From Bacteroidetes bacterium CG12_big_fil_rev_8_21_14_0_65_60_17 (GTDB lineage: Bacteria > Bacteroidota > Rhodothermia > Rhodothermales > UBA10348), in contig PCUY01000082.1 of assembly GCA_002787815.1 (NCBI GenBank), positions 1 through 48,965 of the forward strand: a DNA stretch of 48,965 nt, given 5' to 3'. The translations under genes and the position numbers were made by a program. The notes beneath the pieces were generated by a model. That model did no database searches and was not told where the DNA came from. It worked only from the letters and a program-made list of their open reading frames with translations. Below are positions 26,634-48,965 of this stretch, one piece after another (positions within the stretch are counted from its first letter, which is position 1; the number at the start of each line of letters is the position of its first letter).

Positions 26634-27575
26634 TCAGGAAATGCAGGTTGTGACGAATGACTGGAGTGCCTGAAGATACGCGTCCGGCGCATCCCTGTGC
26701 ACGGTGTGACCCGCGTCGGGGACCGGGACATGGTGCACGCCGGAAGGGTTGCCGGCAAGCCGGCGGCCCACGTCGTCGTAGCGGTGATCCCGGCTGCCCG
26801 AAACATACCAGCCCCGCCCCCCGAAACGGTGCGGAACGGACCAGAAGTCCGGTTGTGCAGCCAGGGAGTGGGCGCGAAGGGCGGCCGCAAGAGGTGCCAC
26901 ACGCGCGGACAGGTCAGCGCACGGCGCTCCGCGCGGCAGTATGGAATCCAGACGGTCTTCGACGCGCTGCGTGAACGTGTCCGCAGGACGTCCGTCGTGC
27001 AGAAAAACCGACTGCCGGTACCAGTCCGTCAGGAAGGCACGTAGATCGGCTTTTGTCGTCGTGCGTTGGAGCCGCAGGGCCATTTCCGTATCGTGCCGTG
27101 CGCGTGCGCGCCGGTCCCCGGCCGTGGTCAGCCCGGGATGAGCCGACTCAATAAAGAGGCCATCGGCCACGTCCGGGCGGGCATGCGCCATGGCCAGTGC
27201 CACACGTCCGCCCATCGAATACCCGGCGAGAAGCACACGTGCCGGCGCGGATCCACAGCGCTTCGCAGCAGGATGTGCATGAATGGCGTCCCAGACGAGG
27301 GTAGCGGTATGCCCGAGAGAAACGGGCATGACATGCGCACTTCTGCCGTGACCTGGCAGGTCGGGCAAGAGCGCCTGGCAACCGCTCCGCACGGCGGCCT
27401 CCCGGGCGACGGCGTCCAGATCTGCACTGCACCCGAGGAAACCGTGGAGGATGACGAGGAGCGGCGCCGCGCCGGGCGGTTCATCGGCTTGCGGCCCCGG
27501 GAAGCGCTCGGCTTGCGGCCCCGGGAAGCGCTCCGAGCGCGGATCGATGTGGTGCAAATGGAGCTTCGTCTTCAC
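26634..27575 (-). CDS. menH: Probable SHCHC synthase MenH (alpha/beta-hydrolase)
   Basis: 313 residues. Alpha/beta-hydrolase motifs: oxyanion ILHGFLGCSADLD, DLPGHGRS, nucleophile elbow GYSMGGR and C-terminal His in DAGHTVH. MenH eliminates pyruvate from SEPHCHC to form SHCHC; position between menD and menB fits that step. The N-terminus has two identical copies of ERFPGPQA (27485-27532), a polymorphic-looking extension before the fold. The ATG overlaps the menD stop by 4 nt. Other hydrolase roles cannot be excluded by sequence alone. Confidence 0.85.
   Translation of the reverse strand: MKTKLHLHHIDPRSERFPGPQAERFPGPQADEPPGAAPLLVILHGFLGCSADLDAVAREAAVRSGCQALLPDLPGHGRSAHVMPVSLGHTATLVWDAIHAHPAAKRCGSAPARVLLAGYSMGGRVALAMAHARPDVADGLFIESAHPGLTTAGDRRARARHDTEMALRLQRTTTKADLRAFLTDWYRQSVFLHDGRPADTFTQRVEDRLDSILPRGAPCADLSARVAPLAAALRAHSLAAQPDFWSVPHRFGGRGWYVSGSRDHRYDDVGRRLAGNPSGVHHVPVPDAGHTVHRDAPDAYLQALQSFVTTCIS
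27485..27532. repeat. Perfect 24-bp tandem duplication in menH
   Basis: Two identical 24-bp units (27485-27508 and 27509-27532) encode ERFPGPQA twice in the poorly conserved N-terminal tail of MenH. Exact identity suggests a recent in-frame duplication. It lies outside the catalytic core. Confidence 0.9.
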
Positions 27576-39601: not shown

Positions 39602-40358
39602 ATGGGTGTTGAAGAACCAGCGTGCGCCTGGATGCGGCGGCCGCGGCCTTGATGAGTGCTGTGGACACACGAAGACCCACCTTGCCGGACTCGGCCCGGG
39701 ACGTAAACTCGAAAACGATATCGCCGGAGAACCCGTCCGCAACTTTCTCCGTGAGGAACTCCGTCCAGATGGCGCACAGAGATGCTTCATCAGGGAGTGC
39801 TTCAAACTCGCCGACACCCCGAATCATGCCCACCTGTGACATATTCCCGTGAGCAACGGGAGCCGTGAGCGAGGTTGTCACGGCGCGTAACAGGTTTTCC
39901 GACCCGATCCCCAATATCAATTCGTCGGCCTTCTGGTCGCCGGCTGAATCGGCAACCAGAAGGCGAAGACCGGGGACAGTCCCAGTCAATTGCAAGGCTT
40001 CTCCAAATGCCTCGAGCGCAGACGGCCCGGATCCGTCCAGTCCTTCCAGCAGAATGGCGCCTGCCGAAACTTGCGTGCAAAAACGGACTACGTCAGGAAG
40101 TTGCTGGAGATCGTTCATCCAGACGGCGCGCTCCAGCGCACGGGCGGCGAACAGCCCCGGATCCACGACCGCAATGTCGACGTCCCCATCATCCACCCTG
40201 CGCCTTACGGCCGCCACGTTGACGTCCGGAACACGCTGTCGATGCCGACCCAGCGTGCGCAACTCCACGCCGTCCACGCCCCAGAGTCCGGCATAGTGAA
40301 CAATCCTCCCAAGGTCGGATGTCATTGGCGCAGGTTGCCACAAAACGGATAATGTCAT
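39591..40358 (-). CDS. Probable TIM-barrel (sugar-phosphate isomerase/epimerase-like) protein
   Basis: 255 residues from ATG 40358, which overlaps the upstream stop (ATGA). The pattern LGRIVHYAGLWGVDGVELRTLG, VRRRVDDGDVDIAVVDPG and later beta-alpha units suggest an AP-endonuclease-2/xylose-isomerase-type barrel. The usual metal-binding His/Glu residues are not convincingly seen, so activity is uncertain. Last gene of the pilus-like operon and convergent with the barrel gene, sharing 11 nt at the 3' ends. Confidence 0.5.
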   Translation of the reverse strand: MTLSVLWQPAPMTSDLGRIVHYAGLWGVDGVELRTLGRHRQRVPDVNVAAVRRRVDDGDVDIAVVDPGLFAARALERAVWMNDLQQLPDVVRFCTQVSAGAILLEGLDGSGPSALEAFGEALQLTGTVPGLRLLVADSAGDQKADELILGIGSENLLRAVTTSLTAPVAHGNMSQVGMIRGVGEFEALPDEASLCAIWTEFLTEKVADGFSGDIVFEFTSRAESGKVGLRVSTALIKAAAAASRRTLVLQHPSKK

Positions 40359-41485
40359 CGGGAAGCGGGGTTGGAGGCCTGTACAGTAATCCACGCGAGG
40401 ATGTCGTCAAACATGCGGCGCGCTTGACCTGATGGGGTCGCATCCGGCGGCGGCTGCGACTGCGGCTCCACAACGGTCATGTGATCCATCCGATCCCAAC
40501 AACCGGACACTGGACCCACGTGCAGCACTCCGGTAATTGCCTTGCGTGACCAGGGAATATTGCGGACGAGCCAGTCAGGACCCTGGCAGGCTTCTTCCGT
40601 ACCGGAGTATGCTGCAAAATAGATACTCCGTGGAATCGGCGTCCGCTCAAGGCGCAACATCTGAACGCGTCGGGCCGATTCCAGAAATGCGGCAATGGCA
40701 CCGTTTGAAGCTTCAACGTCGCTCTCGAGCACATCCATGCGTACGAGTATAACCAACAGGGAGTCGCGCATGCGCGGTACGGCGCCTGCGTACAGCCCAC
40801 CTGCATGACGCCCCGAAACAATATCCTCGCGAGAAGACACCATGGCGCGCACCGTGGTTGCATAAGAAACGGTTCGTTCGAAAGCGGGTCTTGCCCTTTC
40901 GGCAAGCACGAGACGGATACCACCCTGTCCCGGCTCGAAGACGGCCGGTGCGGCGGCCGTAGTATCGAGGCGGAGTACGCTCCGTGCGCCGGAGAGCAAA
41001 GACCTTCCCGGCATGACGCGCACGTCCACACGACCTGTGGCAGATTCAGGATGAACCACGAAGTCTCTGCCTGGCACGAACTGGACCGTGTCGGGACCCA
41101 GAAGCCAAAGCTCCTGCTCGTCCAGCAGGTGTTTCCGAAGTGGATACGATCGTTCATATCCACCGGCAACAGGAGGTTGGAGGTCAAACCGGGAGAAGTG
41201 ACTCGCTATGTAGTTTGAAACATGGGCTTCTCCCTGCGAAGATGTTTCCCGATTCTGCAAATCGTCGGAGGCCAGCGCACGCATGTGAGACATCAATCTC
41301 CGCGACACACCGTCTGCCGCTGATGGCGCCTCACCTGTCATGGGCGCGACCTTCTGCGACGACCCGCAGCCCACTAGGAGCAAAAGCCCCAATCCGAGGA
41401 AAAGATCAGCGGACCGGTTGATGTGTTTCCGGTTGGTGTGTTTCCGGTTGGTGTGTTTCCGGTTGGTGTGTTTCTGGCAGCGCAT
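40355..41485 (-). CDS. Degenerate M28-family peptidase-like lipoprotein
   Basis: 376 residues. After an unusual repeat-bearing n-region (KHTNR x4), residues 25-40 form a lipoprotein signal (LFLGLGLLLLVGC, lipidation at Cys40). The mature part starts like M28 aminopeptidases: HMRALASDDLQNRETSSQGEAH, YIASHFSRFDL. Where active members have the zinc-binding HYDH and a DDNASG motif, this protein reads ILVRMDV (246-252) and DVEASNGA (256-263), so His and the bridging Asp are missing. The later EE dyad survives in SGTEEACQG (294-302). I infer an inactive, possibly scaffold or carbohydrate-binding, envelope lipoprotein. It follows the secretin gene by 22 nt and overlaps the next gene. Confidence 0.7.
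   Translation of the reverse strand: MRCQKHTNRKHTNRKHTNRKHINRSADLFLGLGLLLLVGCGSSQKVAPMTGEAPSAADGVSRRLMSHMRALASDDLQNRETSSQGEAHVSNYIASHFSRFDLQPPVAGGYERSYPLRKHLLDEQELWLLGPDTVQFVPGRDFVVHPESATGRVDVRVMPGRSLLSGARSVLRLDTTAAAPAVFEPGQGGIRLVLAERARPAFERTVSYATTVRAMVSSREDIVSGRHAGGLYAGAVPRMRDSLLVILVRMDVLESDVEASNGAIAAFLESARRVQMLRLERTPIPRSIYFAAYSGTEEACQGPDWLVRNIPWSRKAITGVLHVGPVSGCWDRMDHMTVVEPQSQPPPDATPSGQARRMFDDILAWITVQASNPASR
41417..41476. repeat. 15-bp tandem repeat, four copies
   Basis: Four 15-bp units (41417-41431, 41432-41446, 41447-41461, 41462-41476; two identical, the outer two with one change each) encode KHTNR three times and KHINR once. They lie between the start codon and the signal-peptide core of the M28-like lipoprotein. 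Confidence 0.9.
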
Positions 41486-41507: not shown

Positions 41508-42869
41508 TCAGTTTCGTGAGCCTTCACCCATCTTTCCCTTGTCCACTTTCTGCTCGACACCTTCATTGAACCGCCGCAGAGCATCCTGTACCGATTGACG
41601 CCGTTCTTCGAGCAGATTGTCTGCATTCATGCGCGCCATGCGGGTACGGATCGGATCGACGAGGCGCACCTGAATGGCAATCACAAGCTCCTTCTGTGTA
41701 ATCTGCTTCTGCGATTTACCGAATACGTACTTGAGGCCGAAGAACCAGCCCGGAAGATCTTTCAGGATGGGCACACCGCTGCGTGATATTGTCTCATCCG
41801 TGCTGTATAGGCCCCCGATAATGGTCTGCTCTCCATCAAGGAGGACGACCTGGGTAGTGGCCTTGCTGCGGTCAATGATGGCCCCGGCTGCCGATGGTCG
41901 GCTACCGGATTTCTCAACTTCTACATCCAGGTGTATGAAGTCCATCACGGGAGATCCAAGCGTATCGGCGAGAGCCTCCTGGATCAACGTCGGTGTGACG
42001 TTTACGATGATACCAGTCTTGAAAAGTTCAGTGACCGTGTTGCCGGAAAAGTCCCGTATCTGAATAGGTACATCCGATCCGATCTGAAGATCTCCTTCCA
42101 CACCGCTCTGGACTGTGACAGACGGGTTGGCAACAGTCTCTCCGATTCCTTCGGCTTCCGCGACACGGAATAGCCTATTCAGGTCGGAAAAGTTGATTTT
42201 GTCCGGTGTCTCCAGGACATCGTCAAAGCTTGAGAAGAGTTCTTTCGTCTTGAGCGAAACGCTGAGGCTGTTTTCTGATCCTTCCCCTCCCGACGCACCT
42301 CCGCCCGTAGCGGCAGCATTGGCTCCGGTGCTACCGAGAATCACACTCCAGTCAATACCAGACTGCTTGGCCTTCGTGTGATTGACCTCGAAAAGAATGG
42401 CGTTTATTTCGATTTGGCGCGTATCGAGTCCGGCCAGTATGGATGCCTGTGCGTTTTCGGTCCGGGGACCCGTCGCTTCCGCCATCAGGGATTCGTTGCC
42501 GCGTATGGGTGCGTCCTCTGGCGCCTCGCTGATCAGGAAGTAACGGTCCGTCTCACGGAACGTCATCCCGTTCTGTTGCAGAACCAACTCAAGGGCATCC
42601 ATGAAGTGCATGCCGGAGATGGACAGGCCGATTGGTTCAGTCCGGCTTTCGGTATCGATGACTTCTTTTCCCGTCGCCCGCTTGAAAATGGGATTCAGGA
42701 ACTCAATGAACGTATCAAATGGCGTGGACGGCAGGAAGGAGACCAGATGTTCGGGCGGGATGTACGTGCGGATCTGACGCTGTGCAACGTCCTGTGCCTC
42801 TGCGGACCTGAAGGATGTCATCGACATCGTGGTGAGCAGAATCAGAATGTAGGCGGCGATTTTTCTCAT
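41508..42869 (-). CDS. Secretin (PilQ/GspD-like outer-membrane pore)
   Basis: 453 residues with a signal peptide (about 1-25, ending in AEAQ). A short N-terminal STN/N0-like domain (GLSISGMHFMDALELVLQQNGMTF) and an N1-type region lead to the secretin domain: RQIEINAILFEVNHTKAKQSGIDW, ETVANPSVTVQSG, VNVTPTLIQ, VVLLDGEQTIIGGLYS and the signature VPILKDLPGWFFGLKYVFG. Secretins form 12-15-mer outer-membrane channels for type IV pili or type II secretion. It is short, with only one or two N domains. Upstream genes of PilMN, PilOP and PilT type make a pilus-like machine most likely. Confidence 0.9.
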   Translation of the reverse strand: MRKIAAYILILLTTMSMTSFRSAEAQDVAQRQIRTYIPPEHLVSFLPSTPFDTFIEFLNPIFKRATGKEVIDTESRTEPIGLSISGMHFMDALELVLQQNGMTFRETDRYFLISEAPEDAPIRGNESLMAEATGPRTENAQASILAGLDTRQIEINAILFEVNHTKAKQSGIDWSVILGSTGANAAATGGGASGGEGSENSLSVSLKTKELFSSFDDVLETPDKINFSDLNRLFRVAEAEGIGETVANPSVTVQSGVEGDLQIGSDVPIQIRDFSGNTVTELFKTGIIVNVTPTLIQEALADTLGSPVMDFIHLDVEVEKSGSRPSAAGAIIDRSKATTQVVLLDGEQTIIGGLYSTDETISRSGVPILKDLPGWFFGLKYVFGKSQKQITQKELVIAIQVRLVDPIRTRMARMNADNLLEERRQSVQDALRRFNEGVEQKVDKGKMGEGSRN

Positions 42870-42876
42870 GAGGGGC

Positions 42877-43791
42877 TCACTGTTTCCGTGATGGTGCCAG
42901 TCTGACAGGTCCGATGGCCTGACGGTAGCTGGCGCCCGTATCCAACATCAATTCAATTTCGTCGGTAATGCCGCCCCTGTTGAGGCGGACCACTACCCGT
43001 CCTTCCCTTGGATCGACAGAAATCAGCGTTCCTAAATAGACCTTGTCTCCAGGCTCGAGCCCGACGTATGAATCATTCCAGAAGAAAACGGCCTGTCCAC
43101 CGGCGATCATGGCCAGTTCAGCCCGCTCTACATCGACCAGGTCGTCGGTATTGGGGGGCAGTTCGGACAATACCAGCGGCTCAAATGGATTGTCGGCAAG
43201 AGACGGCGACGGAAACCAGCTGGCCGGGATTTCGGGCAGCGACTCCCGTTCGTCGGCGCTCATGCCGGTCATCCCGCCGTAGAACGCCGTGAGCTCAAAG
43301 TTGAACTCTATCATGGCATCTGCCGATGCCTGTAGTTCCAGGTCCGTGACACGGTAGAGAACCGGGGAGTTTTCAATGGACCAGATCAATGAGTACAGGT
43401 CAGGCCAATCAGCCCTGCCCTTGATATCAAAATCGAATCGGTTGAATTTTCTACTCTCGCGGTGGGCCTTGAACGTAATATCGAATGGATCGAAGCCGGA
43501 AGACGTATGCTCATTCAGGAATCGGATGACGTCTTCCGATGACAAGCGCCCGGGAACTGATTTGTAGCGAGCCTGCCACCGGGTCATGGCTTCCCCCGCC
43601 AACGATTCCGACGCGGACACATCACCGAGTAGGGAATTCATCTCGGCGGCTTTCAGACGTGCGACTTCTTCCGCCTTTTCCAAACGGGACATTTCCGCCG
43701 GCTGCTTGAGCAGCGTAAGGTAGGCACCGCCGCCGGTCGCAAGGAGCCAGCAGAAGCCAAGAATCAAGATATTTTGGACGAGATTGGACAT
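42877..43791 (-). CDS. PilO-PilP-like fused inner-membrane/periplasmic assembly protein
   Basis: 304 residues. One N-terminal membrane helix (about 5-26, LVQNILILGFCWLLATGGGAYL), a coiled coil (SRLEKAEEVARLKAAEMNSLL) and a ferredoxin-like PilO-type domain (about 85-170, FDITFKAHRESRKFNRFDFDIKG, WPDLYSLIWSIENSPVLYRV) are followed by a Pro-rich linker and a small beta domain (GLEPGDKVYLGTLISVDPREG, VVVRLNRGGITDEIELML) like PilP or the GspC HR domain. This resembles PilO and PilP joined in one chain, linking the inner-membrane platform to the secretin encoded just downstream. Sequence similarity is weak; order and topology carry the call. Confidence 0.65.
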   Translation of the reverse strand: MSNLVQNILILGFCWLLATGGGAYLTLLKQPAEMSRLEKAEEVARLKAAEMNSLLGDVSASESLAGEAMTRWQARYKSVPGRLSSEDVIRFLNEHTSSGFDPFDITFKAHRESRKFNRFDFDIKGRADWPDLYSLIWSIENSPVLYRVTDLELQASADAMIEFNFELTAFYGGMTGMSADERESLPEIPASWFPSPSLADNPFEPLVLSELPPNTDDLVDVERAELAMIAGGQAVFFWNDSYVGLEPGDKVYLGTLISVDPREGRVVVRLNRGGITDEIELMLDTGASYRQAIGPVRLAPSRKQ

Positions 43792-43800
43792 GTATCCTTA

Positions 43801-45636
43801 TCAGGAACCGTTGGTATGGTTATCGGCAGTTGCCGGTCCTGATGTAAGCGGCAGTGCCTCCATTGTGCTCTCATCCACATCGGCTTCACCCGCGACCTCC
43901 GCCTGGACCTGCTCTCGAAGAAGTCTGGCTGCTTCGGGAAGATCACGTTCCAGTTTCATGGTCATCTCCCAGATATAGACCGGCCAATCCCGCACGTCGG
44001 AGAACCGGACGTATTCAAGAATGGCATCGAGCTCAGATGCCAGGGCAACGACGGCTTCCCTGGTCATGGATTTTCCGGACAGCTTGAGAATGTCCGCGTC
44101 CCGATCTGCCGACCATTGTTCAATCCAGATATTGGATACGCTACCGGTGGCCATGGCCGTCCTTTCCATCGTGCGAGACCAGATATCGCTTCCCACGAGA
44201 AGGGAATCCAGCACATCCAGGGCCTCGGTCAGGCCATCCGACTGTGCGCGCAAGCTGTCTATGCGATTTTCGAGTTGGTCCAGATCCGCCTCAATGACGG
44301 AACGTGGATATGCATTGAGCTGCGAGCGGTATGAGATAATGTCCGATTGCTGATGGAACCATTTTCCCACGAAGAACAGGGTCGACCCGAAGAGGACCAC
44401 AATCATCGCCGCCACCGGCCACGAGAACGGGAGTCGAAACTGCGGCCCGGCCAGTTTGTGATCCAGAAAGTCCACATCGGCAAATGCTCCGGACCAGCTG
44501 GGGTGAGGACTCGTCCGCAGTGCTGCCACAGCTGCCATCAGTCCGACTCTGCTCATGGCGTCGACGTCCGACTGATTCTGGGCGGGCAGGAGGGTTCGGA
44601 GAAGTTGGGTATGCGTCTCCTGGAAAAACTCCCGGAAGCTTTCGGCGAGGGCCGTCTCCCGTTCATCACTGAACAGGTAAATACACTCAACGTCACCACG
44701 TCCCAACTCATCCTGCAACAGCAACACGCGGCTGCAAATCGTTTCAGCAGGATCGAAAACAGTTACCGAACGCAGGTTCTCCACATGCCAAAGCGTATTA
44801 CCCTGCATGAAGATGACCATGGTGTCGTCCGTGCCGACACGTACGACAAGACGTGTCGATTCGTCTTCGGACGACTCCCGCGCCGTTACCAGCCCCGCCA
44901 ACAGACTGATTTCGGTATCTATCAGCAGCACATTCGGAAACGGCCGGCGTCTGTCTCTGATGGCGCGAAGTGTCGGAGTCACAGGCTCAAACGGTTGCGC
45001 GCATACGGCCAATCTGGAGGCCGTCGAGCCCGGCGTAGAAACAAGGGGCAGGAATACCGTCTTGTCTTCGTCGAACCGGGCCTTCTGTTTCGTTTCGAGT
45101 TGTTTGAGGAGGAATTCCTTCGATGGCTCGTTCGGATTCGCCTTGTTGGCCTTGCGTTTGGTCGTGCCATCAGCCTGCAGGGAAGCGGATGGAATGTGGA
45201 TCGACTCCGTGTGCGTGTGCTCCGAACCGAGTGCGAATACGACACGAAACGAATCGTATCCGGCCGCCTCACACTCTGTAATAATTTCAAGGACCTCCAG
45301 ATCGAATGGAGTGGCACCGCTCGACGGAATCGTGAAGTCGGCGCCACCCGTATCTGAGCCCTCACCCGGAGCATCTACATTGAACTCTGATGCCAGGAAA
45401 AGCGAATTGTCGGCTGTGTCACCCTCCGAGAGGGTGAATGAAAAATCAGTTCCCGATTCCTCCTCCACCTGGGGCGTATCCAGGTCTGCCCCCATGAAGT
45501 GTCCTGATGTGCGGGACCGGTGAAAAGTCCGTACCAGTTCCGGGCCATCCGGACCGTTGTGAAGCAATACCGCTTCCACTTCAGAAGCCGATGCAGCTAC
45601 ACCGAGTACATATTCCTGTGTCTTTCTGAGTTTCAT
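43801..45636 (-). CDS. PilM-PilN-like (GspL-like) fused assembly protein
   Basis: 611 residues in two parts. The first 390 resemble PilM/GspL actin-like proteins (EYVLGVAASASEVEAVLLH; NVLLIDTEISLLAGLV; LVVRVGTDDTMVIFMQGNTLWHVENLR), without the clear nucleotide-binding DIG motif of PilM. A single membrane helix (about 404-421, WPVAAMIVVLFGSTLFFVG) follows, then a coiled coil (VIEADLDQLENRIDSLRAQ) and a periplasmic ferredoxin-like domain as in PilN (IWIEQWSAD, ILKLSGKSMTREAVVALASEL). Classical GspL also joins these two modules. It would form the inner-membrane platform with the next gene's product. Confidence 0.7.
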   Translation of the reverse strand: MKLRKTQEYVLGVAASASEVEAVLLHNGPDGPELVRTFHRSRTSGHFMGADLDTPQVEEESGTDFSFTLSEGDTADNSLFLASEFNVDAPGEGSDTGGADFTIPSSGATPFDLEVLEIITECEAAGYDSFRVVFALGSEHTHTESIHIPSASLQADGTTKRKANKANPNEPSKEFLLKQLETKQKARFDEDKTVFLPLVSTPGSTASRLAVCAQPFEPVTPTLRAIRDRRRPFPNVLLIDTEISLLAGLVTARESSEDESTRLVVRVGTDDTMVIFMQGNTLWHVENLRSVTVFDPAETICSRVLLLQDELGRGDVECIYLFSDERETALAESFREFFQETHTQLLRTLLPAQNQSDVDAMSRVGLMAAVAALRTSPHPSWSGAFADVDFLDHKLAGPQFRLPFSWPVAAMIVVLFGSTLFFVGKWFHQQSDIISYRSQLNAYPRSVIEADLDQLENRIDSLRAQSDGLTEALDVLDSLLVGSDIWSRTMERTAMATGSVSNIWIEQWSADRDADILKLSGKSMTREAVVALASELDAILEYVRFSDVRDWPVYIWEMTMKLERDLPEAARLLREQVQAEVAGEADVDESTMEALPLTSGPATADNHTNGS

Positions 45637-45640
45637 TTTT

Positions 45641-46987
45641 TCAGGCCAATTTTGCGAGTCTTCGCTTGTTGTTGGCGTAGGCGAGCGCTGTATCCGGCGT
45701 AATATGTCCCTGTTTCATCAGACGAAACAGATCCTGCTCCAGTGTAATCTGTCCCTGACTCCACCCCTCCCACATCATCTGATATATTTCACCCGTGTTG
45801 CCATTTTTAACTGCAGCGCGTGCTTGGGGTGACATCCAGAGGACCTCCTTGGCCAGGATGCGTCCGCCCCCCCGCTTGGGCAGCAGCTTCTGGGACACAA
45901 CACAGCGAAGCACATCCGCCAGGCGTTGACGTATCCGATCCTGCTGATCGCCGGGATACTCTGCAATAATCCGGTCAATACTTTCTACGGCCGAAGAGGT
46001 ATGCAACGTGGAAAAAACCTTGTGTCCCGAGTCGGTGATTTCCATGGCGGACGTGATGGTCTCAGGATCCCTCATCTCGCCAATTACTACGATGTCGGGG
46101 TCCTGCCGGAGCGCCTGAACTATCCCATCCTTGAAACTGGGCACATCTACGCCTACTTCCCGGTGACGAACAATACACTTCTTGGACTCATGGACGTACT
46201 CAATCGGTTTGCCAATCACCACAATATGTCCCTCTGCATCCCCGTTGTTGGCATCGACGATTGCGTCGAGAGTCGAACTTTTGCCAGATCCCGTCACTCC
46301 CGTGATGAGCGTAAGGCCATCACGCACGTGGCTGAAAAGCAGTCCCTTTTCGATAACGGGGTGAAATCCCAGTGAGCGGAGTGACCTGATCTCATTCGAG
46401 ATTGCACGCATGTTCAACACCAGGTTGCCGAGATCCAGGTAGGCTGACGCTCTGAATCGTTTCCGGGCCCTGTTGTGGGACGTGTTCAATTCGTACGAGA
46501 AATCTGCCGCTCTCCACGAAAGCAGACGCTCAATACCCGATCTCGTCAGCAGGTTCAATATCAGAAGTGCGCTTTCATCCGGAGACAATGGATCGCCCTG
46601 CGTGTCCGGCCGCTTGCGACCATCGACGCGGAACCATACGGATCCCCGCTCTGCCATGCCCCCGATATCAATGTCTGACGCGTTGAGTGTCGCCATGCGG
46701 CTCAGCAATGTATCGATATACGAACGCATCCCGGCACGCTGCGTCAACTCCAGGCCTGCAAGTTGTTCGACGTGGTGTCGAATCCGCTCTTCACCGGTGA
46801 GCAGTGCAGGCGTACTCTGCGCCAATGATCTGACAAAAGGTGGTAGATTGGGCCTGTTTTCGCTCGGAGAGCCCGGAGAGCCCGCATGCGCCGATCGCGA
46901 AGGACCTCGCATTGTGTTCTGAGTATGGGAAAGGGTCTGTTCCACGTGGCTCGACGACTCCATTGATTCGGTACCTGCTTGACTCAT
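45641..46987 (-). CDS. PilT-like type IV pilus/secretion ATPase
   Basis: 448 residues. A disordered N-terminal 60 residues precede a PilT-like N domain (LNASDIDIGGMAERGSVWFRVDG). RecA-like core: Walker A GVTGSGKSST, Asp box PIEYVHESKKCIVRHREVG, Walker B ALRQDPDIVVIGEMRD, His box STLHTSSAVESIDRII. The C-terminal block WSQGQITLEQDLFRLMKQGHITPDTAL matches the PilT retraction signature. It powers pilus retraction or acts as the main motor if no separate PilB exists. It heads the operon; an unusual Ser/Pro/Gly-rich N-terminus suggests ATG 46987 or a nearby downstream ATG. Confidence 0.9.
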   Translation of the reverse strand: MSQAGTESMESSSHVEQTLSHTQNTMRGPSRSAHAGSPGSPSENRPNLPPFVRSLAQSTPALLTGEERIRHHVEQLAGLELTQRAGMRSYIDTLLSRMATLNASDIDIGGMAERGSVWFRVDGRKRPDTQGDPLSPDESALLILNLLTRSGIERLLSWRAADFSYELNTSHNRARKRFRASAYLDLGNLVLNMRAISNEIRSLRSLGFHPVIEKGLLFSHVRDGLTLITGVTGSGKSSTLDAIVDANNGDAEGHIVVIGKPIEYVHESKKCIVRHREVGVDVPSFKDGIVQALRQDPDIVVIGEMRDPETITSAMEITDSGHKVFSTLHTSSAVESIDRIIAEYPGDQQDRIRQRLADVLRCVVSQKLLPKRGGGRILAKEVLWMSPQARAAVKNGNTGEIYQMMWEGWSQGQITLEQDLFRLMKQGHITPDTALAYANNKRRLAKLA

Positions 46988-47082: not shown

Positions 47083-48420
47083 CTACCAGGTATCGCCGCG
47101 CCTGGACCTCACGTTGAGGATTTTATCCGTCGTGTTTTCCGGTACGTTCCGGGCCTTGGACAGACCTCGCTCAACAAGGGCCCGAGCCACTTCTTCAGGT
47201 GAGGCCGACGGGTGTTTCGCCAGATAGAGCGCTGCAGCGGCCGTCACATGCCCAGCGGACATGGACGTGCCTGACATGACCTCTATGCCACCGCCTGCAC
47301 CCAGTGAGAGCACGCCTTCGCCCGGCGCATGAATATCTATCAGCTCTCCGAAGTTCGAGAACCATGTCATGGCGCCGCGCTGGTCCGTAGCACCAACGGT
47401 GACGGCACGCTTCACGTGCGCTGGCGTGACATTTTCTGCATTCACGGACTCGTTTCCCGCGGCCACGACCACGGTTACACCGGCCTCGATGGCCTTTTCA
47501 ACAGCGTCATCCAGCCCCGTCCAACTTCCTTGGACATTTTCTCCGAGACTCAGATTCAGTACAGCCGGCTCGTCTCCATGCGCACCCTTCCAGGCTATCA
47601 CGTGTTCAATAGCCTTGATGACCGTCGCGTCATCGGTCGTTCCCGATTCTCCAAATACCTTCAGGTTATGGACACGCACACCGGGAGCAAGACCGACGAG
47701 ACCATTGGCATCGTCGAGCGCTCCTATGATACCCGCGATATGGGTTCCGTGACCGTCGCTGTCATCAGGTGAACCAGCTCCCGAGAAGTCTACACGTTCG
47801 ACCACATTCAAATCAGAATGACTTACGCCGGAATCCACAATGAATACATCTACATCTACCGTTCCCTCGCCATCTCCCGACACGGTCCATGAGTGGCGTC
47901 CGCCTACGGCCTCAATCGACCACGGTACCAACTGATTCCCACCCGGTCGAGAGCCACTGAAAACGGGTGAATGCATTCCGAAAATCGGTTCGACCCATTC
48001 GATTTCGTCATCGCCGTCCATCAGGTCGAGTAATTCGTTGAGGTGCTCGGTGGCGGCCCAGATGGCAAACCCGTCAAACGCCTTGCTGAATTCGTACCGG
48101 TCGAGCACCTTGTACCGATCAAGTACCTTGTAACGGTCAAGCACCTTATAGCGATCGAGCACTTTGTAGCGGTCCAGTACTTTCTCCATATCTATGGAGA
48201 ACATGACTGCCGTGAGCTCACCGCTCTTCCCCATCGTGGTTACCCCCTGATCCAGAAGGTGCATATTCCGCACTTTCTCGTTAGGCGTGACGCGGTGCGA
48301 TGCATTGTCACTTGTAGCCGTATCAACAACGTTGTCTACGCATCCTGACAACAGAACCAACGTGAGGAGAAGGGCACCGAGTGGTAACACACGGGTTGTT
48401 CTATGGGTAAATATAGACAT
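47083..48420 (-). CDS. Lipoprotein subtilisin-like serine protease (S8) with hexapeptide-repeat propeptide
   Basis: 445 residues from ATG 48420, which gives a proper lipoprotein signal (LGALLLTLVLLSGC, Cys27). Residues about 65-150 are an inhibitor-I9-like propeptide (AVMFSIDMEKVLDRY ... KAFDGFAIWA, IEWVEPIFGMH). Within it KVLDRY is repeated five times (80-109). The catalytic domain carries Asp196 (IVDSGV), His224 (DGHGTHIAG), oxyanion Asn323 (AAGNES) and Ser386 (SGTSMSAGHV). The Pro usually following the Ser motif is Gly here, but the triad is intact. Probably membrane-anchored and exported, it would mature by cutting off the propeptide. A hairpin follows the gene. Confidence 0.92.
   Translation of the reverse strand: MSIFTHRTTRVLPLGALLLTLVLLSGCVDNVVDTATSDNASHRVTPNEKVRNMHLLDQGVTTMGKSGELTAVMFSIDMEKVLDRYKVLDRYKVLDRYKVLDRYKVLDRYEFSKAFDGFAIWAATEHLNELLDLMDGDDEIEWVEPIFGMHSPVFSGSRPGGNQLVPWSIEAVGGRHSWTVSGDGEGTVDVDVFIVDSGVSHSDLNVVERVDFSGAGSPDDSDGHGTHIAGIIGALDDANGLVGLAPGVRVHNLKVFGESGTTDDATVIKAIEHVIAWKGAHGDEPAVLNLSLGENVQGSWTGLDDAVEKAIEAGVTVVVAAGNESVNAENVTPAHVKRAVTVGATDQRGAMTWFSNFGELIDIHAPGEGVLSLGAGGGIEVMSGTSMSAGHVTAAAALYLAKHPSASPEEVARALVERGLSKARNVPENTTDKILNVRSRRGDTW
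48094..48183. repeat. 18-bp tandem repeat, five copies, synonymous variants
   Basis: Five 18-bp units encode KVLDRY exactly five times in the subtilase propeptide. No two units are identical in DNA, yet every difference is synonymous (Val GTG/GTA, Leu CTC/CTT/CTG, Asp GAC/GAT, Arg CGG/CGT/CGC, Tyr TAC/TAT, Lys AAG/AAA). Confidence 0.95.
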
Positions 48421-48532
48421 GGGTCTGGAGGGTTGATTGTAGAGTTTCCTGCCTCGCCGTTCAGCGGACATATTGCGTGTATCGGCACTTCAGGTTTGTT
48501 TTTAAATGCCGCCTGACTACCAGACACACAAA

Positions 48533-48619: not shown

Positions 48620-48965
48620 TTACTTCACTGCACCTTCAGACTTGCGCTTTATGTGAACAGCCTCCTCGCCGACATCCACCTGTTCCAGCAGGTTTTTGAG
48701 CGGTCTTATGGCTTCGGATGAATAGCGAATGGTCGCCCGGTCCTGCAGGATGATCCTGAATGCATCCCCCGGCTCCGTTTCACCAGTGTCTCCCTGACAG
48801 GCACCCTCGGTATCCCCATGTGCCAGGTGTGCCGCCAGTGCTGCAGCATCAATTGACAGCGTATGACTGTTTCCTGGATTACCGGGAGGGATGTGACATA
48901 CATATACCAACCCATCTGGAGCTGACTTCTTGGACTTCTTGGACTTCTTGGACTTCTTGGACTTC
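48620..48965 (-). CDS. C-terminal part of a protein with Lys/Lys/Ser repeats and a CHIPPGN-type motif (5' end cut by window edge)
   Basis: About 115 codons, open to the right edge. It begins within tandem K-K-S units, followed by PDGLVYVCHIPPGNPGNSHT and DAAALAAHLAHGDTEGACQG. The Cys-His-Ile-Pro-Pro-Gly motif with the closing AHLAHGD...C pattern occurs at domain boundaries of many secreted proteins in Bacteroidota and other phyla; its role is not established. The C-terminal 60 residues (ILQDRATIRYSSEAIRPLKNLLEQVDV) are more ordinary. The full product lies outside the window, so no overall function is assigned. Confidence 0.6.
   Translation of the reverse strand, partial: KSKKSKKSKKSKKSAPDGLVYVCHIPPGNPGNSHTLSIDAAALAAHLAHGDTEGACQGDTGETEPGDAFRIILQDRATIRYSSEAIRPLKNLLEQVDVGEEAVHIKRKSEGAVK
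48922..48965. repeat. 9-bp tandem repeat at the right edge
   Basis: The plus strand repeats GACTTCTTG in perfect tandem up to the window edge, encoding K-K-S on the minus strand. At least four copies are visible; the array continues beyond the window. Confidence 0.9.

Follow-up and report, generated by a model that had tools for sequence, protein, structure and literature searches.

A tandem hexapeptide array in the predicted propeptide of a Rhodothermales subtilase is kept at the protein level while its synonymous sites are saturated

Why does a predicted subtilase precursor carry five identical copies of one hexapeptide ahead of its protease domain, and by what process are these copies kept the same? 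The question is raised by the window, i.e., the whole stretch of DNA analyzed here (48,965 nucleotides), which is the entire contig PCUY01000082.1 of a Bacteroidetes bacterium of the order Rhodothermales. The features of the gene are as follows.

47083..48471, minus strand: S8 subtilase precursor, an open reading frame of 462 amino acids counted from the upstream-most ATG
48340..48351, minus strand: lipobox LSGC, predicted lipoprotein signal (reading of the open reading frame)
48193..48213, minus strand: TAVMFSI, predicted strand β1 of the propeptide (AlphaFold pro-region model; alignment A1)
48094..48183, minus strand: array of five KVLDRY copies, residues 97–126 (translation of the open reading frame; Tandem Repeats Finder)
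48094..48111, minus strand: last KVLDRY copy, adjoining EFSKAFDGFAIWA; proposed position of strand β2 (alignment A1; low-confidence model)
47965..48093, minus strand: remaining I9-like propeptide (β3, α2, and β4), end approximate (alignment A1; model)
47086..47931, minus strand: mature protease region, start approximate, near LVPWSIEAVGG (PF00082 match; alignment of relatives)

PF00082 matches residues 211–434 of the protein (E 2.1e-40; 139.3 bits versus the Pfam gathering score of 21.8), the DSG, HGTH, AAGN, and GTSMS motifs are present, and the catalytic residues D148, H176, and S338 and the oxyanion residue N275 (A2 numbering) are aligned with those of relatives. A motif pattern for these residues recovered 45 of the 68 related genes, a count lowered because the pattern was too strict; Asp, His, Asn, and Ser are read in all 46 aligned genes (46/46). 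A later ATG (MSIFTHRT) is the likelier start of the protein than the upstream-most one, because a short predicted lipoprotein signal comes after it. This signal, LTLVLLSGC, has the lipobox and the terminal Cys behind a hydrophobic stretch that are expected of a bacterial lipoprotein; the lipobox pattern recurs in 53 of the 68 relatives, and the other 15 likewise have a Cys behind a hydrophobic stretch. The array is located between the signal and the S8 domain, the same place in the gene as that of the I9/subtilisin propeptide (PF05922), and the region bearing it probably keeps the enzyme off until maturation.

The array is perfect in the protein and is encoded by 90 bases, copies 1–5 in protein order being AAAGTACTGGACCGCTAC, AAAGTGCTCGATCGCTAT, AAGGTGCTTGACCGTTAC, AAGGTACTTGATCGGTAC, and AAGGTGCTCGACCGGTAC. 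All DNA differences among the five copies are synonymous (pS 0.90, pN 0), as the original prediction had stated. Codon identity among the copies is 0.37, compared with 0.38 for random draws from the codon use of the gene itself, and a simulation reproduces this random level; the copies are saturated at silent sites, because their codons agree no better than random draws, with the protein unchanged. Furthermore, none of the ten pairs of copies is identical over its 18 bases (0/10), and the near-identical DNA of a recent slippage repeat is absent. The array is old, as had been proposed from the window, and we hold with great confidence that it is selected at the protein level. It constitutes a clean case of amino-acid identity maintained in a repeat without identity of the DNA. 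Two simpler origins were rejected. Fresh slippage is excluded for the window array by the saturated synonymous sites and the random level of codon identity. Chance is excluded because the five sites of a degenerate KVLDRY pattern in this 2.9 Mb genome all belong to the array, with no site for the backwards control pattern in the same genome, and because a pattern scan of 84,980 species genomes finds just four contigs with two tandem KVLDRY units.

All four contigs carry the same subtilase gene family, as found by blastp, and a whole-protein scan of the contig collection of the 84,980 genomes gave no match. Many genes across the order carry such arrays, and the word is often peculiar to the gene, which could not be seen from one window. 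Within the order, a pro-region profile derived from alignment A1 (31 pro-region rows) matches 35 of 114 genomes; across the class it matches 35 of 244, every one in the order and none in the rest of the class, and in a sample of the phylum 14 of 394, of which 13 are in the order and one, outside it, is a weak partial match (G338, 6e-4). Viral contigs gave no match to the unit pattern or the pro-region profile, and no match was obtained in plasmids.

The set of 68 non-duplicate genes was drawn from fetched loci; some ten profile matches, nearly all weak (G016, G019, G033, and G086), were left out, and the counts exclude duplicates (L015, L018, L033–L035, L037–L066, L067, and the secondary frames of L027 and L028). 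At least two contiguous hexapeptide units are present in 53 of the 68 genes, ranging from two to seven copies (two in 12 genes, three in 10, four in 14, five in 11, six in 5, and seven in 1), and all copies are identical in 30 of the 53. The 53 genes have 31 distinct last units, of which AVTKRM (L105) comes from a doubtful array. The words include KVLDRY, KIVDRY, EVVDRY, KILDRY, RILERY, KVLERY, KLFRRY, KFFRRY, KFLSRY, KLLRRY, KMMRRY, KIVSRY, RVARRY, and NFLKRH, and in most genes the last unit is followed by E[FY]xxxFxG. The unit pattern demanded R or K at position 5 and Y, F, H, N, or M at position 6, so that constancy at these positions is partly by construction; in alignment A1, which was built without the pattern, the R and Y columns are likewise invariant or nearly so. 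Degenerate copies are found in the distant genes L021, L022, L025, and L077, such as RLIERY GVVERF SVLERY KVLERY HVVERY. At the same place, L106 (50–1516), L100, L105, and L108 have a unit of about ten residues (VTRRVISKYD twice in L106), a different period on a similar word.

Within lineages, the arrays are frozen. Variable or degenerate copies in close relatives had been named in advance as the observation that would speak against constraint; in each of the four species covered from the genus of the window (g1), the array has five perfect KVLDRY copies, no more and no fewer, and in another genus (g5) each of the four array genes has six KIVDRY copies. The claim that five copies are kept stands within the genus; farther away the picture is richer, as copy number runs from two to seven, the word differs by gene, and some distant genes have degenerate copies. 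In four genus-level groups, array residues are invariant at 120 of 120 positions, compared with 689 of 1116 (62%) positions of the protease domain. On a tree of 63 protease domains, from which the too-short L014 was excluded, the g1 genes span approximately 1.54 changes per site with zero array change; by a rough hand estimate, the absence of change over approximately 134 site-lengths in the four groups limits the rate to approximately 0.02 per unit length. The level of conservation is about the same in upstream copies and in the last copy.

Between lineages, the copies are replaced together. At positions 1–4, upstream copies agree with the last copy of their own gene in 0.874 of cases; when that last copy is taken from a random gene instead, in a shuffle that ignores kinship, agreement is 0.396 (sd 0.034). 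In the tree, a KVLDRYx5 clade and a KIVDRYx4 clade are sisters, with internal branches of 0.19 and 0.42 between them, and at the rate estimated above by hand, independent change of each copy is out of reach because approximately ten parallel changes would be needed on a branch length of 0.6. All copies very probably change together, lineage by lineage. Codon tests were performed on hand-picked arrays in which all or most copies are identical. In 26 arrays, no positional codon match between congeners was detected (P 0.21, 0.10, and 0.88), and the order of events is hidden from this uninformative test because of synonymous saturation. A codon choice that avoids identical neighbors was also considered and found no support, adjacent codon identity being slightly higher, if anything, than in shuffles (0.525 vs. 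0.501). In 29 arrays, 12 identical 18-base unit pairs were counted against 1.75 expected and a simulation maximum of 9; direct copying of units does occur in some other arrays, as exemplified by copies 1, 3, and 4 of L004 and by L089. The original denial of fresh slippage is upheld for the window array.

The fold of the array-bearing region was approached by profiles and models. Pfam I9 (PF05922) does not match the window protein at E values up to 1, and among 31 relatives that share the pro-region it gives weak matches in 9 (best E 5.8e-4). The AlphaFold model of the pro-region (pLDDT 62 overall and about 44–56 in the array) has a helix at 5–15, a strand at 21–28, short helices where the first copies lie, two bridge residues close to the last one, a strand at 69–75, a helix at 76–87, and a strand at 92–98; a model of the pro-region with the protease from a five-row alignment (pLDDT 48) was not used. 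Among the structural matches to the model is Thermococcus prosubtilisin (ProN-Tk-SP; 3afg) with a Z of 5.6 and an rmsd of 3.0 over 80 residues, on a par with ribosomal protein S6, ACT, and other unrelated ferredoxin-like folds; we know of no such repeat in that prosubtilisin. A PDB sequence profile gave marginal matches only, the best being an unrelated flagellar protein (E 0.068), followed by an extracellular serine proteinase (E 0.31). The predicted order, strand–helix–strand–strand–helix–strand, fits that of I9, with the α1/β2 part represented here by the tandem hexapeptides. It is plausible, if weakly so, that the propeptide is I9-like and that the array replaces α1 and β2, and similarly plausible but weak that the last copy occupies the position expected for β2 and the other copies that expected for α1. 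The earlier proposal that one copy is the I9 strand fares in the same way, given the missing Pfam match and the low pLDDT of the array.

We tentatively prefer, at somewhat less than an even chance, the explanation that the array is an expanded α1/β2 segment of an I9-like propeptide, made of exact and equivalent units, that folds or holds its own protease. It starts from what was directly observed, namely, the array, its conservation as protein, the synonymous saturation, the lineage-wise change, and the constant copy number within two genera. Each hexapeptide would be an equivalent, sequence-specific building unit of the propeptide; the last would form or lead into β2, and the upstream units would be a regular extension in place of α1 that helps the propeptide to fold and to hold its own protease. 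Strong purifying selection would act on the units individually and on their number. When the word changes in a lineage, the new word may spread across the array by rare copying of one unit over its neighbors within the gene, or alternatively under shared pressure from one cognate partner, after which only synonymous changes would build up. In modeled propeptides, a four-stranded sheet lies over the protease with two helices on the far side (PMC10580911), so that a longer α1 need not block inhibition. Several observations stand against this explanation: the window protein has no Pfam I9 match, the models are weak (pLDDT 48 and 62) with structural matches shared by unrelated ferredoxin-like folds, and the degenerate distant arrays imply that exact identity is not always required. 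Furthermore, in L101, L102, and L107, two copies are separated by approximately 20 non-repeated residues, one being ahead of β1, which misfits a purely local extension of α1.

The chief rival to this structural extension, unlikely in our estimation, is that each copy is read by the cleft of the protease itself, the copies being equal secondary sites of self-cleavage or docking; with the same modest likelihood, the array would set the inhibitory lifetime of the cut propeptide, and the subsite preference of one enzyme would move all copies. Tyr or Phe and a hydrophobic residue are good P1 and P4 residues for subtilisin, and they are found at positions 6 and 3 of the unit, respectively. Genes of one genome have different words (e.g., in G012 and G074), as would be expected if every protein had a partner of its own, and copies also occur at other spacings (10 residues in L106, 12 in L030 and L031, and 27–28 in L101, L102, and L107). 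In L092 (308–1696), KIVSRY occurs twice with its Ser encoded once by TCC and once by AGT, codons that no single synonymous change connects, a pair again suited to this reading. In an exploratory analysis that covered 46 of the 53 arrays (three genes being too short and four deliberately omitted), unit position 4 associates with residue 244 in NLS[L]G (z 13.2), which we take from the motif to be the cleft position of subtilisin Leu126; kinship confounds this association, since most Phe rows come from one clade. The region of the pro/mature junction is unlike the unit in alignment A1, and a protease of broad specificity should not need full identity, position 1 included. A bolder form, in which each subtilase has a private, multi-copy self-recognition word and selection acts on the sameness of the copies as such, since every copy would contact one common surface of the cognate protease, or the copies would contact one another, is also unlikely; if true, the array and enzyme would switch words together, and paralogues in one cell would be orthogonal through their differing words.

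It is less probable still that the copies are interchangeable strands, any of which pairs as β2 in one of several registers with variable loops, buffering folding or tuning the inhibitory strength. The nearly equal conservation of upstream and last copies and the full identity of 30 of the 53 arrays are as swapping would need; against it, there are relatives with two copies only or with degenerate copies, and the AlphaFold models do not resolve the array. Ordinary turnover, in which slippage expands and contracts the units and perfect copies are merely recent, could draw on the excess of identical pairs in L004 and L089, and it is very improbable, being refuted by the codon data for the saturated window array and opposed by the constant copy number within g1 and g5. 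Hardly probable at all is a precursor from which proteolysis releases several identical hexapeptides as a signal, for although the use of different codons for identical copies and the variation of the word from gene to gene would suit it, the folded propeptide appears to include the last copy and no spacers separate the copies.

Subtilase propeptides usually diverge fast; here, conservation within genera is higher in a stretch of the propeptide than in the protease domain, but between lineages this stretch is replaced as a block. In tandem-repeat proteins with concerted evolution, copies are more alike within than between genes, and the present family shares this likeness within genes and differs in that amino-acid identity is kept while synonymous sites are saturated. 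The propeptide of pernisine acts selectively on its own protease and has a contact in the β2/β3 loop; unlike for the propeptide of the window, no tandem array is mentioned in the text consulted (PMC10580911). No published description of such arrays, tandem and self-similar within a propeptide that looks I9-like, was found in the literature searched. The arrays, with two to seven copies and about 30 words, offer a natural series for testing how propeptides recognize their own protease.

A cluster resembling those of type II secretion and type IV pili (41508–46987) adjoins the subtilase gene and includes a T2SSE ATPase (45641–46987), a gene of 611 amino acids (43801–45636), and a secretin (41508–42869); a T2SSE neighbor is found, within the fetched flanks, beside 6 of the 13 genes of the clade of the window. 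Upstream of the subtilase, a gene open at its 5′ end encodes a KSK repeat in 48924–48965, where the contig ends in a perfect 9-base tandem repeat, and the assembly probably broke there because of this repeat. Two further repeats were observed in the window: a 15-base tandem repeat at 41414–41474 (4.1 copies, 97% match) within the open reading frame 40355–41485, which adjoins the secretin, and a 24-base repeat of two perfect copies at 27484–27542.
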